Source: Alphaproteobacteria bacterium (GTDB taxonomy: Bacteria > Pseudomonadota > Alphaproteobacteria > Micavibrionales > UBA2020). From it: a DNA stretch of 64,000 bases. Below, piece after piece: positions 44,522 through 53,501 of the stretch. The notes under the pieces are model-generated. The model saw only the letters and a list, made by a program, of their open reading frames with translations. It was not told the DNA's origin and ran no database searches. The position numbers and the translations under genes were made by a program. Every line of letters starts with the position of its first letter. Position 1 is the first letter of the stretch. The stretch covers positions 1-64,000 of the forward strand of contig JAEUKT010000004.1 in the NCBI GenBank assembly GCA_016794125.1, written 5' to 3'.

Positions 44522-45136
44522 TCAGAAGCGGTAGCCTACGCCCAATCCGAACACCCAGGGGTCCAGATCGACATCGGCGCGCACGGCACCGTTGTTAACG
44601 CTGACATCGGTATTCAGGAAGATTTTCTTCACATCCGCGTTCAGCATCCAGTGGTCGTCCAGCTTGTAATCCGCGCCGGCCTGCAGGGCATAACCGAAGC
44701 CGTTTTTATATTCGACGGAATTGAACGCGCCAGGGTCACCGTTGTAGAAAATGGTGTAGTTGATGCCGGCACCCAGATAGGGGCTGAATTTCTGGTCGTT
44801 CAGGAAATGGTATTGAGCGGTCAGCGTGGGGGGAAGCACCCAGACATCGCCGAGGTTCAGGCCGCCGGGCAGCCAGCCGACACTATGTTTCGAAGTCGCA
44901 AGAATCAGTTCCAGCGAAAACTGGTCGGTGAAGAAATAGCTGATATCCAGTTCCGGCATGACGGCTGCATCGACTGTCGCCTTGCCGGCAATCGTGCCGT
45001 TGCTGGATTCGGACGGGTTTACGTCGATCGCGCGCAGGCGAAGCTGCCAGTCATGGGGATCAAATCCGGCTTGCGCAGCGGGCGCAGTCAGGGAACAGCA
45101 GGCGCAAAGTGCGAGGGCGGCGAATGTTTTTTTCAT
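44522..45136 (-). CDS. ompW: OmpW-family outer-membrane protein
   Basis: 204 residues. The signal peptide ends AAQA/GFD. The barrel begins WQLRLRAIDVNP, has LGDVWVLPPTLTAQYHF and the typical YLGAGINYTIFYN, and ends LGVGYRF with terminal Phe. An eight-stranded barrel for small hydrophobic molecules is known from E. coli OmpW, which is induced by low oxygen. An FNR-type box lies 51 nt upstream of the start, in line with that. The ribosome site AAGGAG is embedded in a hairpin. Confidence 0.9.
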   Translation of the reverse strand: MKKTFAALALCACCSLTAPAAQAGFDPHDWQLRLRAIDVNPSESSNGTIAGKATVDAAVMPELDISYFFTDQFSLELILATSKHSVGWLPGGLNLGDVWVLPPTLTAQYHFLNDQKFSPYLGAGINYTIFYNGDPGAFNSVEYKNGFGYALQAGADYKLDDHWMLNADVKKIFLNTDVSVNNGAVRADVDLDPWVFGLGVGYRF

Positions 45137-45186: not shown

Positions 45187-45200
45187 TTGATTTTTGTCAA
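45187..45200 (-). promoter_or_regulatory. FNR-type box upstream of ompW
   Basis: TTGAT, TTTT, GTCAA, one mismatch to TTGAT-N4-ATCAA, centred about 58 nt before the ompW start codon. Confidence 0.6.
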
Positions 45201-45211
45201 TAAACGCCGAT

Positions 45212-46396
45212 TCAATCGCCCGTGAGCTTTCCGGCAATGATCTGCCGCACAAAAGGCAGCCCGCGCCCCAGTCCCATGAAGAGCTTGCGCGCCATTTTCC
45301 CGCGGCTTGTCGCATCCGTGAAAACGCCGACAAGCAGGTTTGTACCGTAATACATCGGCAGCGTCGCGGCGCGGTGGCGGCGGCTATAGCGTGCCAGCGT
45401 TTCTTCGCCGGAAAAATCGATGCCGCAGCGCTGCGCCTGCTTTATTTCATGCGCCAGCGTCACAGCTCCCTGCAGGCCAAGGTTGAAGCCGTGGGCCGTG
45501 ACGGGGTGCATGCCAACACCTGCGTCGCCGATCAGGCAGAAACGCCGCGCATGGAAAATATCTGCGTGGATTCCGACAAGCGGGTAACTGAAAAGCGCGC
45601 CGTCAAGCTTCATCCTGCCGAATGCATTGCTTATTCTTTGTGCCACATCAGCGCCGAACGCCTTTGGCGGTTGCGCCAATACAGCAGCGGCTTCGCGCTG
45701 CGTAACGGTCAGCACGACGGAGCAGGATTTAGGCCCCAGCGGCAGCACGGCCAGCGTCCGGTCGTAGAAAAAACATTCGCGGGCGATCCCGTCATGGTCA
45801 TGTTCCAGCGACATGCGGCAGACAATCGCGCTGCGGCCGAAATCGCGCCTTGAGGCCGCTATGCCCATCATATCGCGCGCTGCCGAAAAGCGGCTGTCGG
45901 CGGCAATCGCAAGGCGTGCCGTCACGCGCTGCCCGCTGTTAAGCAGCAGCGTCGCGGCTTTGTCGTCAGTTGATATGCGGGTCACCGAAGTCCCCGCCGC
46001 CAGCGTCACGTTTTCCTGCCGGCTGACGGCGGCGAAGACGGCTTTCTGGATGTTCTGGTTCGAGACCATATAGCCAAGGTTTTCTTTTCCCGCGCGCGCG
46101 GCATCAAAGGACAAAGGCTGGGTCAGGTCGCCGTTGAAAACCGCCGCGCCGATGATGCGGGACACGGCATCGCGCGGAATTTCATCCCACAGCCCCATTT
46201 TTTGCATGATCCGGTGCGACGGGTGCGTCAGCGCGATTTCGCGACCGTCATAGGCGGGATTTTTCAGGGTGGCGGCGGTTTTTTTCTCGACGACCAGCAG
46301 CCGCAAATCCGTTCCGTCCAACTGGCGTACGAAGCTTAATCCGGCGGGACCGCCGCCGATCACGGCGATATCGTAATCGCTACGCCGTCTGCGCAT
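45212..46396 (-). CDS. ubiM: UbiM-type ubiquinone hydroxylase (FAD monooxygenase)
   Basis: 394 residues. Rossmann IAVIGGGPAGLSF, DGREIALTHPSHRIMQKMG and AADSRFSAARDMMGIAASRRDFGRS, and the second FAD contact FCLIGDAGVGMHPVTAHGFNLGLQG, place it in the UbiH/COQ6 group. The DGREIALTH and DAGVGMHPVTAHGFN wording matches UbiM as I remember it. It would hydroxylate the ubiquinone ring with O2 and NADPH. The ATG 46396 overlaps hemN by 17 nt, so it is the second gene of the hemN operon. Confidence 0.75.
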   Translation of the reverse strand: MRRRRSDYDIAVIGGGPAGLSFVRQLDGTDLRLLVVEKKTAATLKNPAYDGREIALTHPSHRIMQKMGLWDEIPRDAVSRIIGAAVFNGDLTQPLSFDAARAGKENLGYMVSNQNIQKAVFAAVSRQENVTLAAGTSVTRISTDDKAATLLLNSGQRVTARLAIAADSRFSAARDMMGIAASRRDFGRSAIVCRMSLEHDHDGIARECFFYDRTLAVLPLGPKSCSVVLTVTQREAAAVLAQPPKAFGADVAQRISNAFGRMKLDGALFSYPLVGIHADIFHARRFCLIGDAGVGMHPVTAHGFNLGLQGAVTLAHEIKQAQRCGIDFSGEETLARYSRRHRAATLPMYYGTNLLVGVFTDATSRGKMARKLFMGLGRGLPFVRQIIAGKLTGD

Positions 46397-47723
46397 GTTT
46401 CTTCTGTTGCGGCGTGAAATAGGCATCGAAGCGCGACGCGACGACGCGCACCGCCTGCCGCGCATCCGGCGTGACGCGGATGCGCCCGCCGTCGCGGGTG
46501 ACAAGCCCGTCCGCCGCCATGTCGGCGAGGCTGTCGATCACGCCGGAAAACTCACCGGCATCGCGACCGTGCTGTTTCAGGATTGCGGGTATATCTGCCT
46601 CGAAATAACACATCAGCTGGCCGATGATGTCGGCGCGCAGCCTGTCCTCGTCGTCCAGCGTCCGCCCGCGGGCGACTGGCAGGTTTTTCTCAAGTATTGC
46701 GGTGCTGTATTCTGACATATGTGGCGTGTTCTGGTAGAAACCGTCCGGCAGCCGGCTGATCGCGGAAACGCCGAAACCCAACAGAGCGGCGGCGGTGTCT
46801 GTGGTATAGCCCTGGAAGTTGCGCGCCAGCGTTTTACGGTGCAGCGCGTCCAGCATGCTGTCTCCCGGCCTGGCGAAGTGATCAAGGCCGATCGGCTCCA
46901 TGCCTGCGTCGCACAGTAGTGTTTCGGCAAATGAAAACTGGTCGATCCGCGCCGCCGCATCCGGCAGGTCTTCGTCGCGGATAAGGCGCATGTGTTTTTT
47001 CATCCACGGCACATGCGCGTAACCAAACATGGCGATGCGGCCCGGATAAAGCGACAGAGACTGCGCGACGGTTTCGGCGATATCGTTCACCGTCTGCAAG
47101 GGCAGGCCGTACATCAGGTCGAAATTGATGCCCGTCACGCCGAAGCGGCGCAGCAGTTCGACCGATTTTTCGACCGTGCCGAAGCTCTGGCGGCGGTTGA
47201 TGGCGGCCTGCACGGCGGGGGAAAAATCCTGTATGCCGAAACTGGCGCGGTTGACGCCGCAATCGCCATAGGCTTCTGCCTTGTCGTGCGACACGCCGCG
47301 CGGGTCGGCTTCGATCGCAATCTCGGCATCCGGCAGGAAGCTGAAGCATTCGCGCAGCACATCCATGGTGCGGCGAAAATCATCGGGTTGCAGCATGGTG
47401 GGCGATCCGCCGCCGAAATGGAGATGCGACAGCGGCAGCCGCCCGCCGGCTTTTTCGGCAGTCATGCGCATTTCGCGGTGCAGCAGCGTCAGGTAATCCT
47501 CGACCGGCGCATATTTGCGCGTGGCGGTCGTATGGCAGCCGCAATACCAGCACATTTCGCGGCAGAACGGGATGTGCACATAAGCCGATACCGTGGCGCC
47601 CGCGGGCAGCGCCGCCAGCGCCTGTTGGTAATCAGCTGCGCTTTTGGACGTAAAATGGGGCGCGGTGGGATAGCTGGTGTAGCGCGGTATCTGCGCGTTG
47701 TATTTCAGGATTTTGTCTTTCAT
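46380..47723 (-). CDS. hemN: Oxygen-independent coproporphyrinogen III oxidase
   Basis: 447 residues. Radical-SAM cluster site C54-REM-C58-WY-C61 followed by GCH, with HFGGGSPTMLQPDDF and the Tyr-rich N-terminus RYTSYPTAPHF typical of HemN rather than HemW. It decarboxylates coproporphyrinogen III without oxygen in haem synthesis. RBS GGAGGG. An FNR-type box lies 47 nt upstream. ubiM follows, overlapping by 17 nt. Confidence 0.95.
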   Translation of the reverse strand: MKDKILKYNAQIPRYTSYPTAPHFTSKSAADYQQALAALPAGATVSAYVHIPFCREMCWYCGCHTTATRKYAPVEDYLTLLHREMRMTAEKAGGRLPLSHLHFGGGSPTMLQPDDFRRTMDVLRECFSFLPDAEIAIEADPRGVSHDKAEAYGDCGVNRASFGIQDFSPAVQAAINRRQSFGTVEKSVELLRRFGVTGINFDLMYGLPLQTVNDIAETVAQSLSLYPGRIAMFGYAHVPWMKKHMRLIRDEDLPDAAARIDQFSFAETLLCDAGMEPIGLDHFARPGDSMLDALHRKTLARNFQGYTTDTAAALLGFGVSAISRLPDGFYQNTPHMSEYSTAILEKNLPVARGRTLDDEDRLRADIIGQLMCYFEADIPAILKQHGRDAGEFSGVIDSLADMAADGLVTRDGGRIRVTPDARQAVRVVASRFDAYFTPQQKKHAQTA

Positions 47724-47769: not shown

Positions 47770-47783
47770 TTGATCAAAGTCAA
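47770..47783 (-). promoter_or_regulatory. FNR-type box upstream of hemN
   Basis: TTGATCAAAGTCAA, one mismatch to the FNR/Anr dyad, 47-60 nt from the hemN start. Confidence 0.65.
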
Positions 47784-47816: not shown

Positions 47817-48611
47817 TCAGTTTTGTTCGCTGCGATTGATCTGGATCAACTTCTTGCCGGGGCAGGTGTCGGCGCGGTCGCAGCCTGCGCCGCGTGTGCC
47901 GGCACATTCGCCGGGCAGCGCCGAACAATGGCTGCAGCAGTAATCGACCAGTCTGGAAAAACTCTCGACCTCGACCTCGGGCCCGTTCACGGATATGCCG
48001 ACCGGCTTCAGCTGCGCCAGCGCGCGTGAAAACGTTTCCGGCTTCATGCCAAGGCGCGCGGCGGCCAGTGACTTGTCGTAGGGAAACGAGAATGTGCCGC
48101 CCTTGCCGATCATGCCGGACGACAGCTGCAGCAGCAGGCAGCCCACGCGCTGCGGCGCGCTCATCAGCGCCAGATGCTCGTTTTCCATCTGCAGGTTGCG
48201 CATTTCCCGCGACATCGAATCCATGATGCGCACCATGATTTCATGGTTTTCGCGTGCCTGCGCGCGCAGGTCGTCGCCGGATATTTCTATGATTCTCGCT
48301 TCTTCCGCCGCTTCGGCCGCGAAAGGGTAGCCGGTATTTCCAAAAATGGCGGCTTCGCCAAATACATCGCCGCGTTTGAAAAGGGCGATCACCGCTTCTT
48401 CGCCCTCATTGGTTTCGCTGTAAAGCTTCACCCAGCCGCTGAGAACGACGAAAAGGCGGTCGGCCTTGTCCCCCTTCAGGAAGATGTTCTGTTTTTTTGC
48501 ATATTTCGCAATCCGCGCGGCCTTGACGAAGCGCTGGATCATGCTTTCCGGCAGCTCCGCAAAGAACGGAAGTCCGCGAAGGAATTTATCTGTTTCGTCA
48601 GCAACGGCCAT
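47817..48611 (-). CDS. Crp/Fnr-family regulator with Cys-rich C-terminal tail
   Basis: 264 residues. The cyclic-nucleotide-binding-like domain (about 15-135) lacks the four cysteines of FNR (no Cys before residue 158). The helix-turn-helix carries ETFSR (E192, S195, R196), as in FNR's ETISR, which recognises TTGAT. The C-terminal tail holds six Cys (C225, C226, C229, C236, C244, C250), enough for a metal or Fe-S site. It should control the low-oxygen genes around it, because boxes of that type lie before ompW, hemN and ccoN. The exact subfamily (FnrL, DNR, NnrR) is not assigned. Confidence 0.85.
   Translation of the reverse strand: MAVADETDKFLRGLPFFAELPESMIQRFVKAARIAKYAKKQNIFLKGDKADRLFVVLSGWVKLYSETNEGEEAVIALFKRGDVFGEAAIFGNTGYPFAAEAAEEARIIEISGDDLRAQARENHEIMVRIMDSMSREMRNLQMENEHLALMSAPQRVGCLLLQLSSGMIGKGGTFSFPYDKSLAAARLGMKPETFSRALAQLKPVGISVNGPEVEVESFSRLVDYCCSHCSALPGECAGTRGAGCDRADTCPGKKLIQINRSEQN
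47836..47849 (-). promoter_or_regulatory. Perfect FNR-type box inside the regulator's 3' end
   Basis: TTGAT-CTGG-ATCAA (47836-47849), a perfect dyad that encodes KLIQIN of the regulator itself. It lies about 113 nt upstream of the hemN start and 53 nt from the promoter-proximal hemN box. Confidence 0.5.
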
Positions 48612-48742: not shown

Positions 48743-48756
48743 TTGACTAAAATCAA
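48743..48756 (+). promoter_or_regulatory. FNR-type box upstream of ccoN
   Basis: TTGAC-TAAA-ATCAA, one mismatch to the dyad, 78 nt before the ccoN ATG in the 222-nt intergenic region. Confidence 0.6.
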
Positions 48757-48833: not shown

Positions 48834-50264
48834 ATGACGGCACCCACCACCGCAACCAAACCGGTTTTCAACGACCACATCGTGCGCCTGTTCACGCTCG
48901 CCGCCATCTTCTGGGGCATCGTCGGCTTTGCGGCGGGGCTGTTCATCGCGCTGCAGATGGCGTTTCCCGAGCTGAACTTCGAACCCTATCTCAGCTTCGG
49001 CCGGCTGCGCCCCGTGCATACTTCGGCGGTGATTTTTGCCTTCGGCGGCAACGTGCTGTTCGCGACCAGCTACTTCGTCGTGCAGCGCACCTGCCAGGTG
49101 CGGCTGTGGAATGACGGGCTTGCCTTCTTCACCTTCTGGGGATACCAGCTGTTCATCGTCATCGCGGCGGTGGGGTATGTGCTGGGCATCAACCAGAGCA
49201 AGGAATACGCGGAACCCGAATGGTATGCCGACCTGTGGCTGACGGTCGTCTGGGTCGCGTATCTGCTGGTTTTCCTGATGACGCTGAAAGGCCGGCGGGA
49301 GCCGCATATCTATGTCGCGAACTGGTTCTATCTCGCCTATATCGTGACGGTTGCGATCCTGCACCTGTTCAACAACCCCTCGGTGCCCGTCGTCATTACC
49401 GGCGCGAAAAGCTATTCGGTCTGGAGCGGGGTGCAAAGCGCGATGATCCAGTGGTGGTACGGCCATAACGCCGTCGGCTTCTTCCTGACCGCAGGGTTCC
49501 TTGGCATCATGTATTACTTCGTGCCCAAACAGGCGCAGCGGCCGGTTTATTCCTACCGCCTGTCGATCCTGCATTTCTGGTCGCTGATCTTCATCTATAT
49601 CTGGGCGGGGCCGCACCATCTGCTGTACTCCGCGCTGCCCGACTGGGCGCAAACGCTCGGCATGACGTTCTCGATCATGCTGTGGATGCCCAGCTGGGGC
49701 GGGATGATCAACGGACTTATGACGCTTTCGGGCGCGTGGCACAAGCTGCGCGAAGACCCGATCCTGCAGTTCATGATCGTCTCGCTCGCCTTCTATGGCA
49801 TGAGCACGTTTGAAGGCCCGATGATGTCGATCAAGGAAGTCAACTCGCTCAGCCATTTCACCGACTGGACGATCGGGCATGTGCATTCCGGCGCGCTCGG
49901 CTGGAACGCATTCATCAGCTTCGGCGCGATCTATTACCTCGTGCCTGTGCTGTGGAACAAGAAAGCCATGTATTCGACCAAGCTGATCAGCGTGCATCTG
50001 TGGCTTTCGACGCTGGGCGTCGTGCTGTACATCACGTCCATGTGGGTCGCCGGCATCATGCAGGGCCTGATGTGGCGCACCTACGACGCGCTGGGCTTCC
50101 TGCAGTATTCCTTCGCCGAAACGGTGGAGGCGACGCATATCTACTACGTCATCCGCGCGCTGGGCGGCCTGCTGTTCCTGAGCGCCGCGCTGATCATGGT
50201 CTATAACATCCGCAAGACGATCAAGGGCGAAGAAGCGACCCTGCCCGTCCTGCAGGCCGCGTAA
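48834..50264 (+). CDS. ccoN: cbb3-type cytochrome c oxidase subunit I
   Basis: 476 residues, 12 membrane helices. It is the catalytic subunit of the high-affinity terminal oxidase, holding haem b and the haem b3-CuB site. Recognisable segments are [51 protein letters not shown], the [19 protein letters not shown] loop, and [15 protein letters not shown] with the final His ligands. It reduces O2 to water at low oxygen and pumps protons. First gene of ccoNOQP-GHIS; RBS AGGATA. An FNR-type box is 78 nt upstream. Confidence 0.97.
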
Positions 50265-50278
50265 AGGGGGCAACGAAG

Positions 50279-51031
50279 ATGCTGGATAAACACAAGAAGG
50301 TCGAAAAGAACTCGATCCTGCTGCTGGTACTGATCGTCGTCGTGGTCGCCGTGGGCGGCATCGTCGAGGCTGTGCCTCTGTTCCGCGTGCAGACAACCAT
50401 CGAAAAGGTGCAGGGCATGCGCCCCTACACGCCGCTGGAACTGGCGGGCCAGGATATTTACGTGCGCGAAAACTGCTCGGTCTGCCACAGCCAGCAGATC
50501 CGCCCGCTGCGTGACGAAGTAGAGCGCTACGGCCATTATTCTCTGGCGGCGGAAAGCATGTATGACCATCCCTTCCTCTGGGGATCGAAACGCACCGGCC
50601 CCGATCTTGCGCGCGTCGGCGGCAAATATTCCGACGACTGGCATGTGGCGCACCTGACCGCGCCGCGCCAGATGGTGCCGGCGTCGATCATGCCGTCCTA
50701 TGGCTTTCTCAACCACGAAGCTGTCGACCTGACGCAGATCAAGGAAAAGCTTTCCGCCCTGCGCATGGTCGGCGTGCCCTATACCGACGACATGATCGAG
50801 AACGCGTATAATGACGCGATGGCCCAGGCGCATCCGGAAACGGATTCGGCCGGCCTTGTCGGCCGTTACGGCAACAAGGTGCAGGTGCGCGATTTCGACG
50901 GCAACATCAAGGAAACGAGCGAAATGGACGCGCTGGTCGCCTATCTGCAGGTGCTGGGCACGCTGGCCGATATCCGCAATTACAACCCCGATATTTCGCC
51001 TGAACCGCTGGTGGAGAAGAAACATGATTGA
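50279..51031 (+). CDS. ccoO: cbb3-type cytochrome c oxidase subunit II (mono-haem)
   Basis: 250 residues. N-terminal membrane helix (about 11-30), then a periplasmic haem c domain with C66-SVC-H70 ([14 protein letters not shown]) and [20 protein letters not shown]. It passes electrons to CcoN. It starts 14 nt after ccoN and overlaps ccoQ by 8 nt. Confidence 0.96.
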
Positions 51032-51173
51032 TTTCATCGTCACGCATGCATCCAGCATCGCTTTGCTGGGGTTCTTTACGGGATTTGCCTATATCGTCGT
51101 GACGGTCATGCGCCCGTCGCGCAAGGCCGAACTGCAAAAACACGCGCTGATGCCTCTTCGGGGAGATGAATAG
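51024..51173 (+). CDS. ccoQ: cbb3-type oxidase subunit CcoQ
   Basis: 49 residues, one membrane helix (about residues 8-28, [21 protein letters not shown]) followed by a short polar tail [17 protein letters not shown]. Such small CcoQ proteins stabilise the complex. The ATG overlaps the ccoO stop by 8 nt, and its TAG shares its last base with the GTG of ccoP. Confidence 0.88.
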
Positions 51174-52063
51174 TGGCCGACACAGACAAGCAAAAAGAAA
51201 TTGACCGCGTCACCGGCGTCGAAACGACCGGGCACGAATGGGACGGCCTGAAGGAACTGAACAACCCCGCGCCCCGCTGGTGGCTTTGGGTGTTCATCAT
51301 CACTGTCATCTGGGCGATCGGTTACTGGGTCGTGTATCCCGCCTGGCCGACGCTCAGCGGTCATACCGAGGGCAAGTTTGGCTGGACCCAGCACAAGCAG
51401 TTGAAAGCCTCTCAGGCGGAAATTACCGCGCGCCGCGCCGTTTATATCGACAAGATGAAGGGCATGTCGCTGGCCGATATCAAAAAATCGCCGGAACTGT
51501 ACGAATTCGCCCGTGCGGGCGGCGGTGTCGCGTTCAAGGAAAACTGCGCGGCCTGCCATGGCACCGGCGCGCAGGGCAACGCCGTGCGGGGATACCCGAA
51601 CCTGAACGACGACGACTGGCTGTGGGGCGGCGACCTTGAATCCATTTATAAAACGATCCGCGTCGGCGTCAATTCGGGCCATGCCGATCAGCGCGGCACG
51701 CAAATGCCGTCCTTTGGCCGCGACGGATTGCTGACTGCGGCGCAGATCGACGATGTTTCCAAATACGTCGCCGAACTGCACAAGGGCGATGCCGCCCCTG
51801 TGACGGAAGCCCGCACGCGCGGCGCCACGGTGTTCGCCGAAAACTGCGCGGCCTGCCACGGCGCTGGCGGCGAAGGCAGCGTCGAAATGGGCGCGCCGCG
51901 CCTGAACGACGAAATCTGGCTGTGGGGCGGCGACGAAAAATCGATCCACAATACCGTCACCAACGCGCATCTGGGCGTGATGCCGACATGGGAAAACCGG
52001 CTTGACGATGATACCGTCAAGATGCTGGCGATTTACGTGCATTCGCTGGGTGGCGGCAAGTAG
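51173..52063 (+). CDS. ccoP: cbb3-type cytochrome c oxidase subunit III (di-haem)
   Basis: 296 residues. Membrane helix at about 36-57 (WWLWVFIITVIWAIGYWVVYP), then two haem c sites C125-AAC-H129 and C225-AAC-H229, each followed by GxGxxGN/S. GTG start 51173 with GGGAGATGAATA before it, overlapping ccoQ by one base. It accepts electrons from cytochrome c and passes them to CcoO. Confidence 0.96.
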   Translation: MADTDKQKEIDRVTGVETTGHEWDGLKELNNPAPRWWLWVFIITVIWAIGYWVVYPAWPTLSGHTEGKFGWTQHKQLKASQAEITARRAVYIDKMKGMSLADIKKSPELYEFARAGGGVAFKENCAACHGTGAQGNAVRGYPNLNDDDWLWGGDLESIYKTIRVGVNSGHADQRGTQMPSFGRDGLLTAAQIDDVSKYVAELHKGDAAPVTEARTRGATVFAENCAACHGAGGEGSVEMGAPRLNDEIWLWGGDEKSIHNTVTNAHLGVMPTWENRLDDDTVKMLAIYVHSLGGGK

Positions 52064-52082: not shown

Positions 52083-53501
52083 ATGCTCGATGAAAACATA
52101 ACATATTTCGAAAAGCAGGCGCGGGTATATCCGCGTTCTGTCAAGGGACGCTATCGCCGCCTGAAATGGGCGGCGATTGCCGTTTTGCTGGGCATCTATT
52201 ACGCAACGCCTTGGCTGCGCTGGCACCGCGGCGAAAACCTGCCGGATCAGGCCGTGCTGATCGACATGCCGGCGCGGCGCGCCTATTTCTTCGGCATCGA
52301 AATCTGGCCGGACGAGGTTTATTTTATCACCGGCATTCTTGTGCTGGCGGCGATCGGCCTGTTCTTTGCGACGTCGCTGCTCGGCCGCGTCTGGTGCGGC
52401 TATGCCTGCCCGCAAACGGTCTGGACCGACCTGTTCGTCTGGGTCGAGGAAAAGATACAGGGCGACCGCAACGCGCGCATGAAGCTGGACGCCGGCGGCT
52501 GGACTTTCGCCTATGTCTGGAAAAAAGCCGTCACGCACATGCTCTGGATTGTTATCGCGCTCTGCACCGGCGGGGCCTGGGTGATGTATTTCAACGATGC
52601 GCCCACGCTGTTTGACAATCTGCGCCATTTCGACATGCCCTGGAGCGTCGGCAGCTGGATACTGGGCCTGACCGGATCGACGTACCTGATGGCGGGTTAT
52701 GCGCGCGAGCAGGTTTGCAAATACATGTGCCCCTATGCCCGTTTCCAGTCGGCGATGTTCGACAAGGATACGTTGATCATCGGTTATGATGCCGGGCGCG
52801 GCGAACCGCGCGGCAAGCACAAGAAGGGCACATCCTGGGAAGGGCACGGGCATTGCATCGACTGCATGCAATGCGTGGTGGTCTGCCCGGTCGGCATCGA
52901 CATCCGCAACGGCCTGCAGATGGAATGCATCGCCTGCGGGTTGTGCGTGGATGCCTGTAACGGCGTGATGGACAAAATCGACCTGCCGCGCGGGCTGATC
53001 CGCTACGACACCCAGCGTAATTACGAGGCGCGGCGTGCCGGCAGCACCGCAAAAAGCCGCCTGCGCATCCTGCGCCCCCGCACGTTTTACTATGCGGGCG
53101 TGATATCGCTGGTGGCGGGGCTGATGCTGTACGGGCTGATCGCGCGTCCGCGCATGGAGCTGCACGCCATCCAGAACCGCAACCCGCTTTTCGTGAAGCT
53201 GAGCGACGGCAGCATCCGCAACACCTATGTCGTCAAGATACTCAACAAGACGCATGAAACGCGCCATTTCTCGCTGGGTATCGAAGGCATGACGCCGAAA
53301 CAAATGACGCTGCAATCGGCGACGCCGCTGGACCCTTCCGATCTCGAGGTTGTGGGCGGGCTGGTGGCGCAATACCGCCTGATGGTCGTGGCCGACAAGC
53401 TGCCCGACCCGCGCCATACCATCAGCATCACGGCAAAGGAAATAGGCGGCAAGCTGCATGACGAAGCGACAACAATTTTTGTGAGCGGAGACGAACCATG
53501 A
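52083..53501 (+). CDS. ccoG: cbb3 oxidase accessory protein CcoG (FixG/RdxA)
   Basis: 472 residues. Several membrane helices precede two ferredoxin-like clusters: CIDCMQCVVVCP and CIACGLCVDAC. N-terminal CGYACPQTVWTDLFVWVEE is typical. It belongs to the polyferredoxin family implicated in copper reduction or cbb3 assembly. It follows ccoP by 19 nt and overlaps ccoH by 4 nt. Confidence 0.94.
   Translation: MLDENITYFEKQARVYPRSVKGRYRRLKWAAIAVLLGIYYATPWLRWHRGENLPDQAVLIDMPARRAYFFGIEIWPDEVYFITGILVLAAIGLFFATSLLGRVWCGYACPQTVWTDLFVWVEEKIQGDRNARMKLDAGGWTFAYVWKKAVTHMLWIVIALCTGGAWVMYFNDAPTLFDNLRHFDMPWSVGSWILGLTGSTYLMAGYAREQVCKYMCPYARFQSAMFDKDTLIIGYDAGRGEPRGKHKKGTSWEGHGHCIDCMQCVVVCPVGIDIRNGLQMECIACGLCVDACNGVMDKIDLPRGLIRYDTQRNYEARRAGSTAKSRLRILRPRTFYYAGVISLVAGLMLYGLIARPRMELHAIQNRNPLFVKLSDGSIRNTYVVKILNKTHETRHFSLGIEGMTPKQMTLQSATPLDPSDLEVVGGLVAQYRLMVVADKLPDPRHTISITAKEIGGKLHDEATTIFVSGDEP

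Follow-up and report, generated by a model that had tools for sequence, protein, structure and literature searches.

A Crp/Fnr-type regulator of Alphaproteobacteria whose conserved C-terminal cysteines may hold an oxygen-responsive iron-sulfur cluster

The window analysed here is a stretch of 64,000 nucleotides of alphaproteobacterial DNA, taken as a whole. In it, the genes ccoN, ccoO, ccoP and ccoG lie upstream of a gene for a Crp/Fnr-type regulator, and hemN and the gene for a UbiM-type hydroxylase lie downstream of it. The features on which the following analysis relies are these:

47817..48611, minus strand: Crp/Fnr-type regulator gene, 264 aa, ATG start (reading of the ORF and Pfam)
48249..48506, minus strand: cNMP_binding (sensor) domain, residues 36-121 (Pfam PF00027)
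48138..48140, minus strand: codon of C158, in helix D, where the DNA-binding domain starts; invariant in homologues with the tail motif
48012..48074, minus strand: helix-turn-helix, residues 180-200, with recognition helix ETFSR at 192-196 (Pfam and AF2 model)
47817..47951, minus strand: C-terminal tail, residues 221-264 and stop codon, in which C225, C244 and C250 are unconserved
47904..47936, minus strand: tail core C226-x2-C229-x6-C236 (from conservation among homologues)
48834..50264, plus strand: ccoN, cbb3 oxidase subunit I, a likely target (TIGR00780, 728 bits)
50279-51031, 51173-52063 and 52083-53501, following ccoN: ccoO, ccoP and ccoG, respectively
46380..47723, minus strand: hemN, oxygen-independent coproporphyrinogen III oxidase, a likely target (TIGR00538, 408.5 bits, cut-off 325)
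45212..46504, minus strand: ubiM-type 5-demethoxyubiquinol hydroxylase, with an uncertain ORF start and an overlap with hemN (NF006593, 476.4 bits, cut-off 420)
44522..45136, minus strand: gene for an outer-membrane protein of the OmpW family, a likely target (PF03922, 4.7e-47)
48743..48756, no strand assigned: FNR-type box TTGACTAAAATCAA, in the intergenic region between the regulator and ccoN; its place is kept in L001
47770..47783, no strand assigned: FNR-type box TTGATCAAAGTCAA, 54 bp upstream of hemN; its place is kept in L001
47836..47849: FNR-type box TTGATCTGGATCAA, a perfect palindrome within the 3' coding end of the regulator (the disordered tail), 120 bp upstream of hemN
45187..45200, no strand assigned: FNR-type box TTGATTTTTGTCAA, 58 bp upstream of the OmpW gene

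The regulator has both of the domains that define the Crp/Fnr superfamily, that is, a cNMP-type sensor domain (PF00027, 4.5e-21, 75 bits against a cut-off of 27.5) and a Crp-type helix-turn-helix (PF13545, HTH_Crp_2, 4.8e-07, 30.1 bits against a cut-off of 27). Within the superfamily, no NCBIfam equivalog fits it. The models for FtrB (NF006901, 121.5 bits against 211; NF050815, 67.9 against 300), for Fnr (NF008365, 54.9 against 228; NF045989, FnrL, 16.4 against 300) and for FixK (NF050806, 46.6 against 300) all remain under their cut-offs. The top sequence match in the PDB is a Ruegeria protein, 3fx3 (1.4e-36), and DNR is found among the more moderate matches (3dkw, 4.3e-19). The Ruegeria 3fx3/3h3z type, like FtrB, shares the overall fold of the regulator, but its alignment stops at residue 227 and no Cys tail is visible in it. 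The earlier note on this DNA had taken the protein for an FNR-like regulator in which the N-terminal cysteines of FNR are missing. Family scores and the tree rule out a member of the FNR subfamily that merely dropped those residues, and by the same measures the regulator belongs to the FtrB/Dnr-like branch of Crp/Fnr proteins. RedB of Rhodobacter was also tried as a relative; it was compared by description only, and the word cysteine does not occur in the portion of its published description that was available.

The AlphaFold2 model of the regulator (pLDDT 88.7, from an alignment of 49 sequences) has the usual Crp/Fnr layout, with a dimer helix at residues 123-149, helix D at 152-163, the helix-turn-helix at 180-200, and a wing. 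Its nearest structure by VIA-align is holo-FNR of Aliivibrio fischeri (Z 23.4, rmsd 2.5 over 224 residues), and by Foldseek its nearest structures are 3fx3 and 3h3z. A predicted C-terminal helix at residues 218-228 bears C225 and C226, and predicted order in the tail extends to about residue 240; pLDDT falls below 50 at residues 248-251 and 253-264. In a second model, of a shorter relative that ends just past the third tail cysteine (L022), no residue has pLDDT below 50, and the final ten residues average 65.

The regulator contains seven cysteines, at positions 158, 225, 226, 229, 236, 244 and 250. As had been noticed from the sequence, there is no cysteine in its N-terminal part (indeed none before residue 158), and the ETFSR recognition helix resembles that of FNR. 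The same note correctly placed six cysteines in the tail but omitted C158, which came to light when tailed and tail-less relatives were compared. In the first such comparison (99 ORFs, 84 of them distinct), C158 was present in 48 of 48 tailed proteins, in none of 15 tail-less ones, and in 2 of 21 with other tails. In a larger set of 186 Crp/Fnr homologues, from which ORFs shorter than 190 aa or running past the end of a locus were excluded, 79 of 79 homologues with the tail motif have C158, compared to 7 of 107 without it. (With the first tail pattern, 77 of the rows matched had C158, and one additional match, L181, has a tail of a different kind, called class B below; a wider pattern added L146 and L197, for a total of 79 rows.) Since the split between tailed and tail-less proteins was itself drawn by the three tail cysteines, only C158, H146 and T67 tell us anything beyond that definition. 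H146 is also tied to the tail, although less strictly, being found in 69 of the 79.

What the relatives keep of the tail is a core, C226-x2-C229-x5/6-C236, and not its other cysteines. The spacing between the second and the third cysteine is 5 in 46 homologues, 6 in 30, 2 in 2 and 11 in 1. The second cysteine is followed by Ser in 62 homologues, by Thr in 14, by Pro in 2 and by Ala in 1, so that 76 of 79 have Ser or Thr there. Beyond the invariant positions, five columns hold Cys in more than 15% of the tailed set: 20 (13 proteins), 164 (22), 225 (21), 244 (15) and 250 (14). The earlier suggestion of an alternative sensor in the tail thus stands in part. A conserved motif suited to such a sensor is present, but a cluster of six tail cysteines is ruled out by the infrequency of Cys at 225, 244 and 250 (21, 15 and 14 of 79); the invariant set consists of three tail cysteines and C158.

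The association between C158 and the tail, for which the Fisher value carries no correction for relatedness, can also be followed on a tree, which we built without C158 and without the tail columns. For these contrasts eight long-branch or otherwise odd rows were removed, and the 186 rows were thinned to 113 at 62% identity. The supported independent contrasts comprise three in the same direction, none in the opposite direction and one with no difference, which are too few for significance. Two nested pairs have lost the tail: in L231 and L231x, C158 is replaced by Trp in both; in L124 and L126, by Ala and Leu; and H146 is replaced as well. The exceptions are L147 and L191, which retain C158 without a tail, and L031, which has a variant tail without C158.

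These four cysteines bear comparison with those of E. coli FNR, whose cluster is held by C20, C23, C29 and C122 (PMC5398030). The N-terminus of that protein reads CQDCSISQLC, and its Ser is Ser24, directly after Cys23; Ser24 tunes the reactivity of FNR towards O2, which is altered when the residue is replaced (PMC4505428). The two proteins have in common the Crp/Fnr fold, an E-x2-S-R recognition helix, a box of the TTGAT-N4-ATCAA type, low-oxygen genes as neighbours, and three clustered cysteines (C-x2-C-S-x4-C in FNR) along with one remote cysteine. They differ in that the motif is N-terminal in FNR, with the remote cysteine in the sensor domain, whereas in the regulator the motif is C-terminal and the remote cysteine lies in helix D. 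Identity is 27% across FNR residues 52-239, and the regulator scores far under the cut-offs of the FNR family. Of the marks by which an FNR is recognised, the N-terminal C-x2-C-x5-C motif and central cysteine are absent from the regulator, and, on sequence, the E-x2-S-R helix and the boxes at candidate targets are present. From the position of the Ser/Thr and from the spacing, we liken the tail, although it is at the other terminus of the polypeptide, to the FNR ligand motif, and C158 to C122.

Bacillus already provides an Fnr protein with a C-terminal [4Fe-4S] cluster (PMC3520743, PMC12937710), an example showing that such a cluster is workable in a Crp/Fnr fold. In B. subtilis Fnr, an O2-labile [4Fe-4S] is held by C227, C230, C235 and D141 (PMC3520743). 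Like the regulator, the Fnr proteins of B. subtilis and B. cereus have three tail cysteines past the DNA-binding domain and a fourth ligand outside the tail, which for the regulator is a proposed one. By published description, however, theirs is a Gram-positive C-x2-C-x4-C motif with an Asp ligand, while in the regulator and its tailed relatives, which are alphaproteobacterial proteins, we find C-x2-C-x5/6-C and propose Cys158. A 2026 structural review treats the C-terminal cluster as the Gram-positive FNR arrangement and, in the portion available, states that no crystal structure of Bacillus Fnr exists (PMC12937710).

The DNA around the regulator is rich in boxes of the form TTGAYN4RTCAA. The window contains 4, compared to 0.21 expected, and 1 of 100 shuffled sequences has as many; the whole genome contains the pattern at 25 places, compared to 3 for the reversed pattern. 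The reported FNR-type boxes at the neighbours were indeed found, at hemN, ccoN and ompW. In the nearest relative (L001, 91% identical), the hemN box at 47770 is kept within an otherwise diverged spacer. The box at 47836 lacks one half-site there, and it is thereby ruled out as a conserved site.

The same enrichment is seen across related loci. In 26 loci with the tail motif (208,761 bp), 59 boxes occur, in 25 of the 26 loci, where a first-order Markov model predicts 1.1; read backwards, the pattern does not occur. When the window segment is added, 55 of 63 boxes are intergenic, compared to about 27% by place alone (73% of positions are intragenic). The box-bearing genes include the regulator itself (13 loci), Hsp20 (8), CBS-domain proteins (5), Host_attach/baeRF (5), a DsbD_2-type cytochrome-biogenesis protein (4), ccoN (3 loci beyond the window) and hemN (2 loci), and, as single cases, nrdD and a Usp-like gene. 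Ten representatives of these neighbours were identified by profile, and the others by similarity to those or by eye. A box lies within 300 bp of the start of the regulator's own gene in 12 of 25 cases (a truncated one, L003, was left out). Box-bearing Hsp20, CBS-domain, Usp-like and Host_attach/baeRF genes recur as a neighbourhood around tail-motif regulators (L004, L005, L006, L007, L010, L011, L017), a grouping reminiscent of a regulon for dormancy or for stress at low oxygen.

Boxes are also enriched around relatives that lack this tail: 12 in 15 tail-less loci (0.2 expected), and 45 in 20 loci of class B (1.1 expected). The box therefore reflects the DNA specificity of the whole branch and does not by itself reveal the function of the tail; FNR boxes as proof of oxygen sensing by the tail are ruled out, since tail-less relatives have them too.

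The genome to which the window belongs (99.95% complete) encodes three HTH_Crp_2 proteins and four cNMP domains. The count was made with PF13545, because a search of this genome with PF00325 gave no match. No FnrL scores above cut-off in it, and the N-terminal FNR motif is found in none of the three HTH_Crp_2 proteins. Among the matches read from the order's 94 genomes, a canonical FNR-like N-terminus was seen in a single genome (L113). A survey of which clades share the tail had been proposed along with the original observation. Run here, it finds the motif in at least 46 of these 94 genomes and in at least 11 alphaproteobacterial genomes from elsewhere; these counts are lower bounds, as they are based on fetched matches, and among the same matches 0 of 11 non-alphaproteobacterial genomes have the motif. 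Two Sneathiella genomes carry both a canonical FNR and a tail protein, which rules out a strict replacement of FNR by the tail regulator. The cultured strain LMG23452 of Sneathiella chinensis has a member of the family (L016:3992-4750), so the tail regulator can be tested.

In our reading, which we hold with a probability of roughly 60%, the protein is an oxygen-responsive regulator of Alphaproteobacteria with a [4Fe-4S] cluster on C158, C226, C229 and C236, a ligand set and a lineage of its own. We infer metal binding, as well as the identity of the metal, the geometry of its ligands, the response to O2 and the direction of regulation. The regulator would be an FNR-like low-oxygen regulator, most likely an activator. 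In place of the N-terminal cysteines of FNR, the three tail cysteines and C158 of helix D would hold its O2-labile cluster, which is most likely [4Fe-4S]. When O2 is low, this cluster would fasten the tail to helix D, the first of the DNA-binding domain, and would set the recognition helices for TTGAY-N4-RTCAA, so that ccoNOP, hemN, ompW and related genes are switched on. O2, and probably NO too, would destroy the cluster and free the tail. A more far-reaching version, whose chances we consider even, holds that an FNR-type O2 sensor was built again at the opposite terminus, outside the FNR subfamily, with a [4Fe-4S] on C158 and the three tail cysteines; that O2 acts directly on the DNA-binding domain and not on dimerisation; that low-oxygen respiration is governed mainly by this protein in an order nearly devoid of canonical FNR; and that class B is yet another solution.

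Other explanations can be given for the same patterns. The cysteines might hold Zn(II), which merely stabilises the C-terminal helix against helix D, while the signal is something else, such as transcriptional control of the regulator gene or a ligand bound in the cNMP pocket. A CxxC with two more cysteines is also compatible with zinc, the sensor domain is intact, and the abundance of the regulator may be controlled, given the boxes near the start of its own gene in about half of the cases. Nonetheless we consider zinc unlikely, because three clustered cysteines and one remote, with Ser/Thr after the second, follow the FNR pattern and not the paired CxxC...CxxC, and because the box-bearing neighbours are low-oxygen genes in a genome that has no detected canonical FNR. 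We give still less credence to a metal-free thiol/disulfide switch formed by C158 and the tail cysteines, as found in some Crp/Fnr proteins. Bradyrhizobium FixK2, for example, is controlled by cysteine modification under oxidative stress (PMC2908626, PMC9104804), and the variable cysteines at 225, 244 and 250 would suit a flexible redox tail, but four strictly linked cysteines with spacings of 5 or 6 exceed the needs of a disulfide pair.

Least probable among these alternatives, in our judgement, is a regulator that senses NO rather than O2, in the manner of Dnr through heme or through an Fe-S cluster. The presence of DNR among the PDB matches points that way; DnrD of Dinoroseobacter is described as most likely heme-based (PMC5398030), and clusters of the FNR type react with NO as well (PMC4771820). 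The neighbours argue otherwise: the box-bearing genes of the 26 loci include cco, hemN, nrdD, Hsp20 and CBS genes, and nir, nor and nos genes were not recognised among them (ten of these neighbours having been identified by profile). Moreover, the nitrate-respiration island of the same genome has two Crp/Fnr regulators of its own.

The regulators of the FixK/FixK2 type share with our protein the type of target gene, the box and the absence of an N-terminal cluster. To our knowledge, FixK proteins lack such a Cys tail. As far as we have checked, the principle of sensing by a C-terminal cluster is known, whereas the ligand set, the lineage and the place are new; in the open-licence literature that our search covered, much of it as partial text, we recognised no description of a proteobacterial Crp/Fnr protein with a Cys cluster at its C-terminus. 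Surveys of alphaproteobacterial Crp/Fnr proteins tell the O2 sensors by their N-terminal cysteines; one of them does so for its mixed FNR-FixK group and, in the portion available, expects members of that group without them not to sense O2 directly (PMC2908626). Should the tail site prove to be a cluster, the rule of N-terminal cysteines would overlook an entire lineage, and genomes believed to be without a direct O2 sensor would in fact possess one. Oxygen-responsive switches would then have been built in a second way, observed here in Alphaproteobacteria, with an FNR-like sensor at the other terminus. The protein would also be a natural case in which to test how activity is governed by a cluster beside the DNA-binding domain, a question raised by Bacillus Fnr.

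Other tails occur in the same branch. Class B is a separate, well-supported clade (25 rows, a single change; members include L028, L030, L034, L055 and L065) with a four-Cys tail, LCxYCD...C...C, and without C158; it may represent a further metal site that arose within this branch of Crp/Fnr proteins. A further Crp/Fnr clade (L064, L132, L152, L153, L225, L232) has short FCD...C tails with two cysteines, a type also found in the genome of the window, near nitrate reductase-like genes. The two other Crp/Fnr regulators of this genome have the tails LCHFCDTDTAALCPKHTDACSDC and LADFCDLLLQETPC. Both are encoded in the nitrate-respiration island, which lies outside the window at about C4:616-653 kb (loci L098 and L099, C4:616000-655000) and contains, as named from translations, narGHJI-like and nrdD/nrdG-like genes, with integrase-like ORFs near both of its ends. 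The island holds nine further FNR-type boxes, and its two regulators may share the same boxes with the regulator described here.
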